Source: Candidatus Providencia siddallii
GTDB lineage: Bacteria; Pseudomonadota; Gammaproteobacteria; Enterobacterales; Enterobacteriaceae
Direction: 5' to 3'
Length of the DNA stretch: 64,000 bases
Assembly (NCBI RefSeq): GCF_964026685.1
Contig: NZ_OZ034688.1
Coordinates: forward strand, 496,001 to 560,000
Shown: positions 47,529-54,925 of the stretch, in pieces
How positions within the stretch are numbered: position 1 is the stretch's first letter
How the letters are laid out: the number at the start of each line of letters is the position of its first letter
Program-made: the position numbers and the translations under genes
The notes under the pieces: generated by a model
Seen by the model: the letters and a program-made list of their open reading frames with translations, nothing else
What the model was told of the DNA's origin: nothing
Database searches by the model: none

Positions 47529-48149
47529 TTAAATTTTATTAATTAAAAATTTAACTAATTCTGAATAATCTTTTCCATAATTTGTTAATTCTTCAGTAAA
47601 AAAAACATCATTACATATTTTATATTTACCATTAACAAAAAATGAAGGCACACTTTGTAAATTTAAATGTTTCGCTGCATTTTGTTGTTTTTTTATAATT
47701 GATTTAACTAAAAAACTATTAACTATATAATTATATTTTTTATTAGATACATTAACTTTAACAAAAGCGTTGATAATATCATTTTTATTTTTTATAGTTT
47801 TTGTTTTTATTATTCCTTCAAAAAAAATTGGTATCATCTTATCTTCTATTTTTAATGCAATAGCAACTGCCCATGCCTTTGTAAGCTCTTTACCTAACGG
47901 ACCAAAAAAATCAACATGATACCTTTCAATTTTTATACTACTTGGCAAATTTTTTTTTATTTCTTGTGGTATTTTATAAAAACATTCAAATTCATAACAG
48001 TGAATACAATAAAAAGAAAAAAATTCAAGAATTTTTGGTATGTTATTAACATTTTTAATTTTTATATATTCATTTCCTTCTATATATTCTTTTGAATATA
48101 TATTTAAAGATATTAAAACAAAAAATACAAATAATATATTCTTTTTCAC
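47529..48149 (-). CDS. dsbA: DsbA, periplasmic thiol:disulfide oxidase
   Basis: DsbA puts disulfides into exported proteins. The 206 residues begin with a signal peptide (about 1-19) and have the thioredoxin fold with FFSFYCIHCYEF near 50 and the cis-Pro loop SVPSFFVNGKY near 170. The active site reads CIHC instead of the usual E. coli CPHC, which could alter redox potential. EL-TKAWAVAIALKIEDK and FFEGIIKTKTIKN match DsbA. It lies upstream of pabA on the minus strand. Confidence 0.94.
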   Translation of the reverse strand: MKKNILFVFFVLISLNIYSKEYIEGNEYIKIKNVNNIPKILEFFSFYCIHCYEFECFYKIPQEIKKNLPSSIKIERYHVDFFGPLGKELTKAWAVAIALKIEDKMIPIFFEGIIKTKTIKNKNDIINAFVKVNVSNKKYNYIVNSFLVKSIIKKQQNAAKHLNLQSVPSFFVNGKYKICNDVFFTEELTNYGKDYSELVKFLINKI

Positions 48150-48327: not shown

Positions 48328-49680
48328 TTAACGTATTGTAACAAATTCTTCTGCAATTGTTGGATGAATTGCAATTGTATTATCAAAATCTTTTTTAGTA
48401 GCACCAATTCTTAATGCAACAACAAAACCTTGTAAAATTTCATCCATACCAAAACCAATACCATGAATACCTATAATTTTTTCATTATCATTAATGCAAA
48501 CCAATTTTAATCTACAAGGTATATTTTGTAAAGTAATAGAAGTATACATAGAATTAAAGGTAGATGTATATATTTTTACATTATTAAAACCATATTTTTT
48601 AATAGCTTGAAATTCAGTAAGACCAACAGCGCAAATAGGTGGGTTAAAAAATACTACAGTTGGAACTGTATTATAATCTAAATACATATTACAACTATTA
48701 TTAAATAAACGTTTTGATAAATTACGACCAGCTGTAACAGCAACAGGAGCTAGTTTAACAGTATTTGTATTATCACCAACAGCATATATATTTTTAATAT
48801 TAGTATTTTGATACTTATCTACTTTTATATAACCATATTCATCAAGTTTTACACCAGTAACTTCGATATTTAAATTATTTGTCATAGGTTTTCGACCAAC
48901 AGCCCAAATTAAAACATCTACTATATATTCATTATTATTTTCTAATTTTAATGTTAAAGAATTATTATCATTTTTTATAATTTCTTTTAAAATAGAATTA
49001 TTATGTAAAATAATTCCTTTTATATTCATTATTTCTATTAAAGTTTTTTTTATTATTGAATCAAATGAACGCAAAGGTATATTTTTACGAATAAATAAAT
49101 GAGTTTCAACACCTAATGAATTTAATATCCCAGCTATTTCAATAGCTATATAACCAGCACCAATAATGGCAACACGTTTAGGTAATTTTTTTAATTCAAA
49201 AAAACCATCAGATGTTATACCATACTCTGAACCACGTATTTCAGGTACAAATGGATAACTACCAGATGAAATTAAAATATGATCAGCACTATAAAACTCG
49301 TTATTAACTTTTAATGTATTTTTATCAATAAAACTCCCAAATCCTTTTATTATAGTTATATTATTCTTTTTAAGAATTTCATAATAACTTTGAGAAACAC
49401 GATTAATATAATTATTACGTATTTTAATTAATTTTTTTAGATCAAAATTACTTTTTAATATATCAAATCCATAATTAGCAGCATAAAAATTAATAATTTC
49501 AGAAATATTTGATGCATACCACATAATTTTTTTTGGAACACATCCTAAATTAACACAAGTTCCTCCTAATTTTTTACCTTCAATTAAAGCACATTTTTTA
49601 CCATATATTGATGCATATTTTATTGAACTAATACCACCACTACCACCTCCAATTACAATATAATCATAATGTCTATTCAT
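48328..49680 (-). CDS. gor: Glutathione-disulfide reductase
   Basis: Gor reduces glutathione disulfide with NADPH. The 450 residues equal E. coli. FAD motif YDYIVIGGGSGGISSIKYA at the start, redox Cys pair in GGTCVNLGCVPKKIMWYAS near 42-47, NADPH motif VAIIGAGYIAIEIAGIL near 170 with LFIRKNIPLRSFD, FAD motif IYAVGDN, and the C-terminal base in IAIHPTIAEEFVTIR. A reading of active redox defence in a host cell is inference. Confidence 0.98.
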   Translation of the reverse strand: MNRHYDYIVIGGGSGGISSIKYASIYGKKCALIEGKKLGGTCVNLGCVPKKIMWYASNISEIINFYAANYGFDILKSNFDLKKLIKIRNNYINRVSQSYYEILKKNNITIIKGFGSFIDKNTLKVNNEFYSADHILISSGSYPFVPEIRGSEYGITSDGFFELKKLPKRVAIIGAGYIAIEIAGILNSLGVETHLFIRKNIPLRSFDSIIKKTLIEIMNIKGIILHNNSILKEIIKNDNNSLTLKLENNNEYIVDVLIWAVGRKPMTNNLNIEVTGVKLDEYGYIKVDKYQNTNIKNIYAVGDNTNTVKLAPVAVTAGRNLSKRLFNNSCNMYLDYNTVPTVVFFNPPICAVGLTEFQAIKKYGFNNVKIYTSTFNSMYTSITLQNIPCRLKLVCINDNEKIIGIHGIGFGMDEILQGFVVALRIGATKKDFDNTIAIHPTIAEEFVTIR

Positions 49681-49990
49681 ATTTTTTTTAATCCTATATT
49701 TTATAAAATTTCTTTATATCTTGTTAAAATAAAAAAATACATTTTAATATTTATTTTTAAAATATATAAAATAAACACTTGTTTATATTTTATAAATAAA
49801 CATTTTTAATATTAATTAAAATTTAATAATTAAATTTTAATTAATATTAAAAATATAAAATATTATTAAAATATTTAATTAAATTTAAAATATTTTTATA
49901 TTATACATATAAAAAATATTTTTTTAAAAAAACAATATTAATATTTATTTAAAATTTAAAAAAATTATTTTTTTTAAAAACTAATACTTA
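49681..49990. other. AT-rich spacer between gor and the truncated hmsP
   Basis: About 310 bases downstream of the truncated hmsP, where its GGDEF and EAL domains would be expected. It is too short for them, and no such motif was recognised in any frame. It contains the 25-bp-arm hairpin listed separately. Confidence 0.55.
49802..49854 (-). terminator. Perfect inverted repeat with 25-bp arms after the truncated hmsP
   Basis: Arms 49802-49826 and 49830-49854 pair perfectly around TAA. The whole element is A+T. It sits about 140 bases after the end of the truncated hmsP and 120 bases before gor, so it could terminate one and insulate the other. Function is inferred from position. Confidence 0.55.
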
Positions 49991-50710
49991 TTATTTTGTA
50001 TTTTTATTGTTATATCCTATATTACGATTATAATTCTTTACCAATAAACCAATTTCATCATCTTGATGAAATTTAGATACATAAAGATTTTTTGTACATT
50101 TTACTATTTTTAATTCAATTGCAATTTGTCGTAACGGTCTTATAATAATTCTATTAATACACCATGTCATAACAATAACAATAATCAATGTTAATAATAA
50201 ATATATAGTCATCATCAAAGCAATCATATTTAATATAAAACGATATATACAACTATGATCTATTTGTAATATTAAACAATGTTTTGATTTATTTTGAAAA
50301 TCTTTAATATTATTTTGATATAATGGGATTGTAATTTCACTTGGAATATCTATAAAATACATAGCCCAATCGGGTATTTGTTTTTTTGAAAAAAAAAACA
50401 AATCAATAATATCAACATCATCAATTGTAACAATAACTTTATTTATAAAAGCATATATTTTTAATATACTTAAAAGATTTTTGGTATTGTTTAAATCTGA
50501 TTTAGATAATGAATCATTTAATGGTTTTTGAATTTGATTTGCAATATTATTTAACTGTTCTATATAACTTTTTTTTTGTTGTTCTAATAAAAAATTAAAT
50601 TGAATAGATAAAAAAACAGCTAATAAAAACATGGTAATAAGAAAAAAAACATTCATACTTTTTAATGTTAACGAGCGTCGGACTTTTATGTTCATTTTAA
50701 TGTAACTCAT
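49991..50710 (-). CDS. HmsP/PdeK-like membrane sensor, truncated before GGDEF-EAL
   Basis: The 239 residues match the N-terminal part of HmsP (YhjK/PdeK), a membrane c-di-GMP phosphodiesterase: RRSLTLKSMNVFFLI with a first membrane segment, a periplasmic sensor (QLNNIANQIQKPLNDSLSKSD, PDWAMYFIDIPSEITIPLYQ), a second membrane segment near 165-188, and a HAMP region TWCINRIIIRPLRQIAIELK and KFHQDDEIGLLVKNYNRN. The full protein has about 650 residues with GGDEF and EAL domains. Here TAA comes straight after HAMP, so no catalytic part remains. The retained part is well conserved with full-length sensor topology, unlike a decaying pseudogene. Synteny near glyS and gor agrees with E. coli. Confidence 0.8.
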   Translation of the reverse strand: MSYIKMNIKVRRSLTLKSMNVFFLITMFLLAVFLSIQFNFLLEQQKKSYIEQLNNIANQIQKPLNDSLSKSDLNNTKNLLSILKIYAFINKVIVTIDDVDIIDLFFFSKKQIPDWAMYFIDIPSEITIPLYQNNIKDFQNKSKHCLILQIDHSCIYRFILNMIALMMTIYLLLTLIIVIVMTWCINRIIIRPLRQIAIELKIVKCTKNLYVSKFHQDDEIGLLVKNYNRNIGYNNKNTK

Positions 50711-51036
50711 GATTAGGAATATTTAAAACATAGTTGTTATAACAATTACAATTTTTTTAAAAAATATTTTCAAAAAAAATTAATTATATAAAAATATAAA
50801 ATCACACTAAAATAAAAAATTATAGTTTTTAACCTTATTCAATAAAATATTGACTTATATATACAAAAATAAATATAACTGTATTATTATCTTTATTTTA
50901 AAAAATTATTTAATAAATATAAAAATAAATATTTATTAATATTATAAAATATAATACCATTTAAAACTATTTTTATATTTAAAACAATTCTATAAAAATT
51001 TTAAAAATACTTATAGTTTTTATACAAAATGAAAAC

Positions 51037-51089
51037 AAAACCAAATTTTATAGAAAAATAAAAAATACTTTTCTATAAAATTTGGTTTT
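51037..51089. terminator. Hairpin with 21-bp perfect stem, terminator-like
   Basis: Arms 51037-51057 and 51069-51089 (starting AAAACCAAATTTTATAG) pair perfectly around an 11-base loop. T runs follow on both strands. It is far from any gene end (610 bases from glyS), so it may be the terminator of a lost gene kept in the spacer. Confidence 0.6.
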
Positions 51090-51563
51090 TTATTAATATA
51101 CTAATTTAAAATTCAAATTTTTTTATAAAATTATATAAAATATTATAATCCATATTATTTATATCAAAAAAAAATTAACTGAGTAACTAGTAATAAAAAC
51201 TTTAAAATAAAATATATTTAATTAATAATTATTACAATATATAAATATATTTAAATTAATATTAAAAAATAATAATATAAAAATAAATGAAAAATTTTAA
51301 TAAAAAAACAATTTATATTAATTTAACAATACACTATAAAAACTTAACAAATTTTTTTATAAAATTTATATTTTTTATTAAAAATTTAATTTAAAATAAT
51401 AAACAAAATCAAATCAGTGTATTTATATTGAATAAATTATTGTTTAAAACAAAAAATATAAAATTATATTTTTTTATAAAATATTGATAATATTTTATTT
51501 ATATACATTTTATAAAACTATTAATTTTAACAAATATTTATTATGTAAATATTACAAATAAAA

Positions 51564-51599
51564 TATATTTAATAATTTTATATAAAATTATTAAATATA
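51564..51599 (-). terminator. Perfect 36-base palindrome about 100 bases after glyS
   Basis: The element is its own reverse complement (18-base arms with no loop) and is wholly A+T. On the minus strand it lies about 100 bases after the glyS stop. A palindrome of this length is only marginally beyond chance in such DNA. Confidence 0.35.
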
Positions 51600-51700
51600 A
51601 TAAATATACTTATTAATAAAAATATATTTTTAATTTTAAAAAAATAAAATATTTAAAAATAATTATTTTATATGTTTATATATTAAATATATAAAAATAA

Positions 51701-53773
51701 TTATTTTAATAAAGATATATCAGCAATTTTTAAAAATAATTCCTGTAAATAATTAAGTAAAGTTAAACGATTAATACGAATCTCTTTATTTTCATCCAAT
51801 ATTTTTACCTTTTCAAAAAAAATATTAATATTTTTATAAAACGATAAAAGTTCAATTAAAGATTCTTTATAATTTTTGTTTATAAAAACTAAACTTAATT
51901 TAATTTGTAATAAAATTATATTAATTGCAAATCTAACTTCTTCAGGAGAGTTCATAATAGAAATTAATATTTTATCTGATAATGATTCTTTTGATTTATT
52001 AAGTATATTAGATATACGTTTATTTGTTATAATTAATTGTTGAGAATCTTTTAAAGAACAAAAATAATCAACAGCTTTAATTCTAAGATCAAAATCATAA
52101 GGTTGTGTTAAATTACATGCTAATACAGATTGTATAATATTAATTTTATATCCTATATATTTATACCAAAACAATAATCTTGCAAACATAAAATTAATAA
52201 CATCATTAACAACATTAACATTACTTAATTTATCACCATATAAATAAACAGATTTTTGAACTATTTTCAATAAATCAATAGAATAACAATTTTTAATAAT
52301 AATACGTAACACACCAATAGCAGCTCTACGTAAAGCAAATGGATCATTGTCACCTTTAAAATTTTTTTTAATACCTAAAATACCAACTAAATTATCAATT
52401 TTTTCTGCAATAGAAAGTGAATCAGATACTTTTGTAGATGGCAGTTTATCATCAAAAAAACTAGGTTTATATTGTTCTTTTAAGGCTAATGCAACATCTT
52501 TATGTTCACCATCACGTAATGCATAATACATTCCTATTATACCTTGCATATTTGTATATTCAAAAACCATATTAGTTAATAAATCACATTTTGATAATAT
52601 AGCAGCACGAGATACATGATCTATATTCGCATTTATTTTTTTTGCAATATAAATTGATAATAATTTTAAACGAAACGTTTTATCAAATAATGTACCTAAT
52701 TTATTATAAAATAAAACAGACTTTAAATTATACAAATTATCTTTTAAATGAATTTTTTTATCCATTTTTAAAAAAAATTCAATATCGGATAAACGAGAAT
52801 TCATAACTTTTTCATTTCCAATTATAATTTCTTTTGAATTAGAAGATTCAATATTTGAAACAAAAATAAAATTTGGTATTAAATAATTATTTTTGTCATA
52901 AATAAAAAAACATCTTTGATTTTTTTTAAGGTTATAAATTAATTCTTCCAAAGGAATTTCTAAAAATTTTTTTTTAAAATTACCAATTAATATAACAGGC
53001 CATTCTATTATTGATGTTATTTCATCAATTAAATCATCGTTTTTTAAATATACTTTTCCACCTAATTTTTTTGCTATTCTTTTAATTTCATATATAATAA
53101 TTCTTTTTCGTTCTTCATAATCAGCAATAACTTTCCCATATTTACGTAAAATATCAGGATATTCATTAGCATCATTAATAATTAATTTAGTTTTACCCAT
53201 AAAACGATGTCCAAAAATATTACGCTTACTATTAACACCTAAAATTTTACCTTTTATTAAATCTTTACCTAAAATCATAGTTATAGTACGAATAGGACGA
53301 ATAAACTGAATATCTTTATTTGACCAACGCATTGATTTAACAATATTTAAATTACAAATAGATTTTTTAACAACATTAACTAATAATTCTTTAATATTTT
53401 TACTTTTTTCTATATAACGATAAACCAACCATTCTCCTTTTTCTGTAACAATACGTTCAGCTTGATTTATTGAAATATTACAACTATATGCCCAAGCTTT
53501 ACCAATTTTAGTTGGTATTCCATTTGAATCAAAAGCTTGAAAAACAGCAGGACCACGTTTTTCAATTTTATGATAAAACCGTAACAAAGATAAATTTAAA
53601 ATTTTTAATGCTAAACGACGAGATGTAGCAAACCATTTTACATCACCATGAATTATATTAACTTTTTTAAGTTCTATTAAAAAATTATTTTTAAAAGATT
53701 CTGCTAATATTTTTAATTCTTTAGGAGGTAATTCTTCAGTACCAATTTCTATTAAAAAAGTTTTTTTTATCAT
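51701..53773 (-). CDS. glyS: Glycyl-tRNA synthetase beta subunit
   Basis: GlyS with GlyQ forms the tetrameric bacterial glycyl-tRNA synthetase; the beta subunit binds tRNA. ATG 53773 gives 690 residues starting MIKKTFLIEIGTEELPPKEL, as in E. coli (689), with AAGGA seven bases upstream; the frame extends 22 codons further but into glyQ. Conserved blocks are WFATSRRLALKI, IEKRGPAVFQAFD, TEKGEWLVYR and FKGDNDPFALRRAAIGVLRI near 475. It starts seven bases after glyQ. Confidence 0.97.
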   Translation of the reverse strand: MIKKTFLIEIGTEELPPKELKILAESFKNNFLIELKKVNIIHGDVKWFATSRRLALKILNLSLLRFYHKIEKRGPAVFQAFDSNGIPTKIGKAWAYSCNISINQAERIVTEKGEWLVYRYIEKSKNIKELLVNVVKKSICNLNIVKSMRWSNKDIQFIRPIRTITMILGKDLIKGKILGVNSKRNIFGHRFMGKTKLIINDANEYPDILRKYGKVIADYEERKRIIIYEIKRIAKKLGGKVYLKNDDLIDEITSIIEWPVILIGNFKKKFLEIPLEELIYNLKKNQRCFFIYDKNNYLIPNFIFVSNIESSNSKEIIIGNEKVMNSRLSDIEFFLKMDKKIHLKDNLYNLKSVLFYNKLGTLFDKTFRLKLLSIYIAKKINANIDHVSRAAILSKCDLLTNMVFEYTNMQGIIGMYYALRDGEHKDVALALKEQYKPSFFDDKLPSTKVSDSLSIAEKIDNLVGILGIKKNFKGDNDPFALRRAAIGVLRIIIKNCYSIDLLKIVQKSVYLYGDKLSNVNVVNDVINFMFARLLFWYKYIGYKINIIQSVLACNLTQPYDFDLRIKAVDYFCSLKDSQQLIITNKRISNILNKSKESLSDKILISIMNSPEEVRFAINIILLQIKLSLVFINKNYKESLIELLSFYKNINIFFEKVKILDENKEIRINRLTLLNYLQELFLKIADISLLK

Positions 53774-53780
53774 AAAATCC

Positions 53781-54689
53781 TTATTTTTTAAAAAGCATAG
53801 GAAAACCGAGCGATTTACGATGAGAAAGATACAATTCACCTATATTTTTGCTTAAATTACGTATTCGCAAAATATAATGTTTACGTTCAGTTATAGAAAA
53901 AACTTTACGTGCGTCAAGTAAATTAAAAATATGAGATGCTTTTAATACACGTTCATATGCTGGAAATAGTAAAGGTTTCTTTAAAAAAAGTAAATATTTA
54001 ACTTCTTTTTCATATTCATCAAAACTTTTAAAAAGAAAATCAACATTTGTATGTTCAAAATTATAACAGGATTGTTCAACTTCATTATGATAATGAATAT
54101 CACCATAAGTAATTTTACCAAAAACACCATCTGACCAAACAATATCATAGATATTATCAACTTTTTGAATACACATAGCAATACGCTCAAGTCCGTAAGT
54201 GATCTCACCAGAAATAGGTTTGCATTCAATACCACACATTTGTTGAAAATAAGTAAATTGAGTTATTTCCATACCATTTAATAATACTTCTCAACCTATC
54301 CCCCATGCTCCAAGCGTTGGATTTTCCCAATTATCTTCAAGAAAACATATATCATGAACATTTAAATCAATTCCTATTTTTTTTAATGAATCTATATATA
54401 AATTCTGAATGTTATCAAACGATGGTTTTATAACAACTTGAAATTGATAATATTGTTGTAAACGATTTGGATTACCACCATATCTTCCATCACTAGGCCT
54501 ACGAGATACTTGAACATAAGCAACAGCAATAGGTTCAGGCCCTAAAGAATTTAAACATGTTATAGGATGAGATGTACCTGCTCCTACTTCAATATCTAAC
54601 GATTGAATAATCGTACAACCTTGCTTTATCCAATAATTTTGTAAAGTTAAAATAAGACCCTGAAATGTTTTTTTATCAAATTTAAACAT
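53781..54689 (-). CDS. glyQ: Glycyl-tRNA synthetase alpha subunit; UGA Trp codon
   Basis: GlyQ is the catalytic class IIc subunit. ATG 54689 ([17 protein letters not shown]) with TAAGG nine bases upstream fits the family; an upstream TTG is in frame. The product has 302 residues (E. coli 303). Motifs are [36 protein letters not shown], and [25 protein letters not shown]. The W of GIGWEV is TGA at 54291-54293, a Trp conserved in the family, so the standard code would split an essential enzyme. Confidence 0.97.
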
Positions 54690-54925
54690 AACAACCTTAA
54701 AATACAAAATTCAACATATTTAATTCTACTATTTTAAAAAAATTAAGTATATTACTTTATTTAAAATTTAAAATATAACTAAAACATATTATTTATACAT
54801 AAATAACTATTTTTATAACAAAAAAAATATAATGATCAACAATCATTAAAATAATTATTTAAATTTCCAATGAATTTAATTTTTAACTATTATATTTTAA
54901 AATATATCATAAATTATTTATAATT

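Follow-up and report, generated by a model that had tools for sequence, protein, structure and literature searches.

The ancestor of the Morganellaceae already had a short HmsP, and the symbiont "Candidatus Providencia siddallii" inherited this output-less form and kept it under purifying selection. Descriptions of GGDEF/EAL proteins usually center on the enzymatic half and take the sensor as its input. The repeated loss of the enzyme, with the sensor under strong selection even in the absence of any GGDEF protein, suggests that GGDEF/EAL proteins signal by contact as well. The gene was found in a window of 64,000 nucleotides (contig NZ_OZ034688.1, positions 496,001 to 560,000), to which all coordinates below refer. 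"Ca. Providencia siddallii" PSAC, the symbiont of a Haementeria leech, has a genome of 756 kbp with 22.0% G+C (PMC11218487).

A sensor-HAMP protein without catalytic domains

Residues 9-231 of the protein encoded at 49991-50710 on the minus strand matched positions 1-228 of the 670-position NCBIfam HmsP model NF008807 (E 1.5e-46), with a score of 158.8 bits against an equivalog cut-off of 733. The gene, its parts, and its neighbors are as follows.

49991..50710, minus strand, short HmsP (sensor-HAMP only), 239 aa, from the open reading frame and the NF008807 match
50582..50674, minus strand, TM1, residues 13-43, SLTLK motif conserved in relatives
50228..50581, minus strand, periplasmic GAPES3 domain, residues 44-161, fold like 4u64 (periplasmic domain of a LapD ortholog)
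50159..50239, minus strand, TM2, residues 158-184, 9/9 near-invariant residues kept
50018..50158, minus strand, HAMP region, residues 185-231, HQDDEIGLL motif, 13/14 near-invariant residues kept
49991..50017, minus strand, unconserved 8-residue tail and stop codon, the point where GGDEF-EAL is absent
48328..49680, minus strand, gor (glutathione reductase), downstream neighbor
51701..53839, minus strand, glyS, upstream neighbor

Translation probably starts at the second ATG (50695), which would give a protein of 234 aa, as all Morganellaceae relatives begin at the second methionine. The preliminary description had proposed a protein with both membrane segments, a periplasmic sensor, and a HAMP block followed directly by a stop. 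This layout was confirmed: GAPES3 (PF17154) scored 93.6 bits (cut-off, 27), two hydrophobic segments were present (residues 13-43 and 154-193), and the stop codon lies 18 aa past the DDEIG motif of HAMP. The HAMP profile (PF00672) scored 14.2 bits, below its cut-off of 25; the region sits where full-length relatives have HAMP, and its position and DDEIG motif are conserved. In all short forms tested, HAMP fell below the Pfam cut-off, several having no match reported at E 0.1, and full-length relatives reached only 21-26 bits.

A search for GGDEF and EAL domains, as suggested in the preliminary description, detected neither in the short HmsP nor anywhere in the 755,758-bp symbiont genome. There was no credible GGDEF-EAL remnant between 45 and 56 kb of the window (best match, E 0.036 over 39 residues), and stops close all frames of the spacer between short hmsP and gor. 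As judged from its sequence, the symbiont protein is incapable of acting on c-di-GMP, since neither domain is present in it and the genome encodes none. The preliminary description had allowed for a GGDEF-EAL stretch masked by a sequence error. That an assembly or sequencing error hides the catalytic half is extremely improbable, given that both domains are absent genome-wide and that 60 other records end alike, and this explanation, for which no support was found, was rejected.

The short form is ancestral in the Morganellaceae

A contig scan with the window protein alone as the query gave no matches. A survey of 392 genomes from the GTDB family Enterobacteriaceae, with a Xenorhabdus copy as the query, gave frames of 234-326 aa in six genera with large genomes; those of other Enterobacteriaceae were mostly of 660-730 aa. 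A named scan yielded 60 Morganellaceae loci (12 from Providencia, 1 from Moellerella, 19 plus one MAG from Xenorhabdus, 11 from Photorhabdus, 5 from Morganella, and 11 from Proteus) and 20 loci from outside the Morganellaceae, e.g., Serratia, Rahnella, Edwardsiella, and Pantoea. hmsP encoded 231-253 aa in all 60 Morganellaceae loci retrieved, free-living ones included, and was full length (658-678 aa) in all 20 others. The Morganellaceae proteins stop 16-27 residues past the motif, with a clade median of 18, and no enzymatic remnant was found downstream of the gene in any of the 60 loci.

A phylogeny of the N-terminal region placed the window copy with two Providencia-like copies from large genomes, and this group next to Moellerella (starred branches, 98/81 and 100/99); the window branch is long, at 1.39 changes per column. 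The symbiont copy shares the length range of the Morganellaceae short forms, ends soon after HAMP as they do, and is nested in their clade. The truncation in the Morganellaceae is neither recent nor decay; a truncation seen in a symbiont may be ancestral instead.

Purifying selection on the short protein

We calculated dN/dS pairwise within genera, and the same 226 residues in Serratia, Rahnella, and Edwardsiella served as the full-length comparison. The short HmsP yielded values of 0.056-0.097 versus 0.037-0.087 for the matching part of the full-length protein, and the family is under purifying selection. Constraint spans TM1, the periplasmic domain, TM2 (0.01-0.11), and HAMP (0.045-0.18) and ceases at the tail (0.24-0.73). 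Thus, it ends where HAMP ends.

The symbiont copy itself has kept 56 of 69 near-invariant residues, with 9/9 in TM2, 13/14 in HAMP, and 25/36 in the periplasmic domain. When neutral decay was simulated with substitutions only, down to the protein identity of the symbiont copy, the runs had a mean of 10.9 stops, and 0 of 2,000 remained free of stops, as the symbiont copy is. Its GC content at codon positions 1, 2, and 3 is 0.268, 0.209, and 0.121, and that of the flanks is 0.075 and 0.045. Ratios of relative rates, with gor and glyS as the reference (1.6 versus 4.1-4.6), were saturated and were not used as evidence. The preliminary description had found the remainder of the gene open and conserved, unlike random decay, which the lack of stops where about 11 were expected and the 56 retained residues bear out. 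It had also considered that the gene might be at an early stage of decay, its catalytic half having been lost from the symbiont by a clean deletion. This proposal was rejected, as 60 Morganellaceae records all have the short form, the gene is under constraint in the symbiont, and both the GC content by codon position and the neutral simulations contradict it.

Slow decay of a functionless leftover, on its way to vanishing from the symbiont as it has from another genome of the genus (G001), would agree with that loss and with the long branch of the window copy. It is nevertheless very improbable in view of the absence of stops, a codon-position GC gradient far from the composition of the flanks, the conservation of TM2 and HAMP, and the purifying selection seen family-wide. 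The symbiont copy may be drifting, given its long branch and the change of 11 of the 36 near-invariant periplasmic residues.

c-di-GMP enzymes in Morganellaceae

The 22 large Morganellaceae genomes tested include 14 without a GGDEF match, comprising all those of Photorhabdus, Morganella, Providencia, and Moellerella and one of Xenorhabdus. EAL was unmatched in 18 of the 22, and one Providencia genome has a 35-residue piece. The Proteus genomes tested have a single GGDEF and lack EAL; of five Xenorhabdus genomes, three have one domain of each kind. In these three (G013, G184, and G338), the single GGDEF gene lies approximately 1 kb from the single EAL gene, and these are the only c-di-GMP enzymes found there.

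These domain counts agree with the relevant part of Romling 2023 (PMC10333796), which reports that the Morganellaceae have nearly eradicated c-di-GMP signaling, with one cyclase left in Proteus, as here; this reduced network explains the absence of GGDEF and EAL. Section 9 of that paper mentions neither the retained sensor half of HmsP nor its repeated origin, and searches of titles, abstracts, and selected passages of open-access literature on HmsP in Proteus mirabilis, Xenorhabdus, and Photorhabdus yielded nothing on a short form. The loss of c-di-GMP in the family is already known, and the retention of the HmsP membrane half was not found in the open-access literature searched. Photorhabdus, Providencia, and Morganella offer a natural experiment in which a c-di-GMP-independent role can be studied without a c-di-GMP background.

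Structure and likeness to known systems

An AlphaFold monomer model of the short HmsP, of moderate confidence (pLDDT 72), predicts a long helix for TM1, a periplasmic domain of the alpha/beta type, and a helix spanning TM2-HAMP. Among solved structures, the periplasmic domain was best matched by 4u64, the output domain that the LapD ortholog CdgS9 has in the periplasm (Foldseek probability, 1.00; Z 12.3 over 127 residues; profile E 0.0012). LapD/CdgS9, an inside-out c-di-GMP receptor whose partner is the LapG protease, shares with the short HmsP this periplasmic fold and the TM-HAMP layout. In contrast to the short HmsP, which ends after HAMP, it needs its own degenerate GGDEF-EAL to bind c-di-GMP.

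The closest known relative is HmsP/PdeK (YhjK), the GAPES3-HAMP-GGDEF-EAL c-di-GMP phosphodiesterase of Enterobacterales, whose N-terminal 228 residues are orthologous to the short form and whose gene lies in the same chromosomal region (dpp, yhjJ, gor, and glyS). The short form differs from it by the absence of GGDEF and EAL, and hence predictably of phosphodiesterase activity, in a genome devoid of c-di-GMP enzymes. Af1503 of the archaeon Archaeoglobus fulgidus is a receptor with HAMP as its sole intracellular domain. By general description, it has an extracellular sensor and HAMP with nothing beyond, as does the short HmsP, but the two sensors are unrelated.

Repeated loss of the output domains

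Outside the Morganellaceae, sensor-HAMP-only frames were found in G063, in G140, and in two members of the genus g23; G243 and G374, of the same genus as G140, have a full-length HmsP. The tree requires four origins of this form, and the starred branches alone force four. Each of these proteins ends after HAMP, and none before it. GGDEF domains number 17-19 in the g23 genomes, one in G140, and none in G063, and the short form therefore occurs both with and without c-di-GMP. G063 is a symbiont with a 759,425-bp genome, near the L007/L009 lineage, and its short hmsP (L074, 4704-5426) represents an independent cut. The preliminary description had suggested looking for the truncation in related symbionts, and the outcome was mixed: the unrelated, approximately 760-kb G063 acquired it independently, but G001, the only same-genus genome examined, lost the gene entirely.

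Two other reduced architectures were observed. A sensor-HAMP-EAL HmsP of approximately 490-540 aa, from which GGDEF is neatly deleted, occurs in scattered lineages (loci L082, L083, L085, L086, L092, L096, L098, L100, L101, and L103), and the tree needs 8 changes for it. Proteins of approximately 390-410 aa that lost EAL and kept a degenerate GGDEF were found in all sampled species of two genera (loci L089-L091, L093-L095, L097, L099, L102, and L104). The sensor-HAMP-only form of g23 nests among these EAL-lost forms, which suggests that it arose by stepwise loss. The sensor-HAMP part is present in every architecture, with the proviso that the genomes were found with a sensor-part query, so that loss of the sensor would go unseen.

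Genomic neighborhood of short hmsP

In the six Morganellaceae genera examined, the gene order is dppABCDF-short hmsP-yhjJ, yhjJ coding for an M16-type periplasmic protein. The dpp genes and yhjJ of this ancestral order are missing from the window, where short hmsP lies between glyS and gor. The genus thus displays a reciprocal loss: G001 keeps yhjJ without hmsP (L067, 2116-5115), and the window keeps hmsP without yhjJ (49681-51700), with no remnant of the lost gene in the gap of either. Because of this reciprocal loss in both P. siddallii-group genomes, an obligate HmsP-YhjJ pair is unlikely, and the case for YhjJ as an obligate partner is weakened. Short hmsP is not indispensable in the genus, since one host lineage, that of G001, has lost it.

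Proposed function of the short HmsP

On balance, we favor the view that the short HmsP is a homodimeric receptor or scaffold of the inner membrane, ancient and selected, whose HAMP domain provides the output by protein contact, independently of c-di-GMP. In the inner-membrane homodimer, the LapD-like (PAS/Cache-type) periplasmic domain would bind a periplasmic ligand or protein, and TM2 would couple it to the cytoplasmic four-helix bundle of HAMP. This bundle would itself be the output, acting through contact with another protein. The LapD periplasmic domain binds a periplasmic protease, and the LapD-like fold of the short HmsP is thus a reason to propose a dimeric receptor or scaffold with periplasmic binding. 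HAMP is the putative output because it is conserved to its end and because none of the independent cuts removed it. Full-length HmsP/PdeK probably has this contact function too, in addition to its phosphodiesterase activity; the loss of the enzyme from several lineages that retained the remainder would then be explained. The idea of a sensor or scaffold without enzyme activity, put forward in the preliminary description, fits all of the data and is supported by them. On a broader scale, there is an even chance that the membrane half of HmsP constitutes a c-di-GMP-independent signaling or scaffolding module of the Enterobacterales, released as a stand-alone HAMP-output receptor in the Morganellaceae and kept in a 756-kb genome, with at least three more such releases.

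The main rival to contact signaling by HAMP is a role confined to the periplasm, with HAMP as a clamp. GAPES3 would hold a periplasmic protein, which could be YhjJ, an envelope protease, or a protein linked to dpp, and would itself just be dimerized and anchored by TM2-HAMP; HAMP retention could indeed serve dimer stability alone. Three findings would suit such a role: among solved structures, the fold is nearest to a periplasmic output domain, that of a LapD ortholog; yhjJ lies directly downstream of short hmsP in all six Morganellaceae genera examined; and HAMP has drifted from the generic profile. However, the HAMP dN/dS values and the persistence of 13 of the 14 near-invariant HAMP residues in the symbiont argue against a simple clamp, and YhjJ is not a required partner, as the window and G001 each keep one gene without the other. 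We therefore regard a purely periplasmic function as rather unlikely. The short HmsP might otherwise modulate other HAMP receptors, such as chemoreceptors or histidine kinases, by forming heterodimers with them. The conservation of HAMP and TM2 with nothing after them is compatible with such mixing, and the profile picks up the HAMP region of Aer, but few or no other HAMP receptors are expected in a 756-kb symbiont, which makes it improbable.

Other features of the window

In Salmonella, the biofilm phenotype that dsb mutants display depends on yhjK (PMC4143323), and the window contains dsbA (47529-48149). A redox link via DsbA was dropped, since the alignment shows no conserved periplasmic cysteine. 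A promoter scan gave 43 sites for 39.5 expected and is uninformative in such AT-rich DNA. A 20-pair stem followed by a T run is present at 51040-51086 on the minus strand, in an AT-rich spacer approximately 615 bp downstream of glyS, and shuffles gave none; it is possibly the glyS terminator or the relic of a lost gene.

glyQ, normally an essential gene, is located at 53781-54707 on the minus strand and has one in-frame TGA (54291-54293), where the GLGWEV of the sister genome G001 has its conserved Trp. The halves on either side of it are otherwise open and conserved, and TGG codes for Trp elsewhere in the gene. Read-through, a strain mutation, and an assembly error are candidate explanations for this codon.
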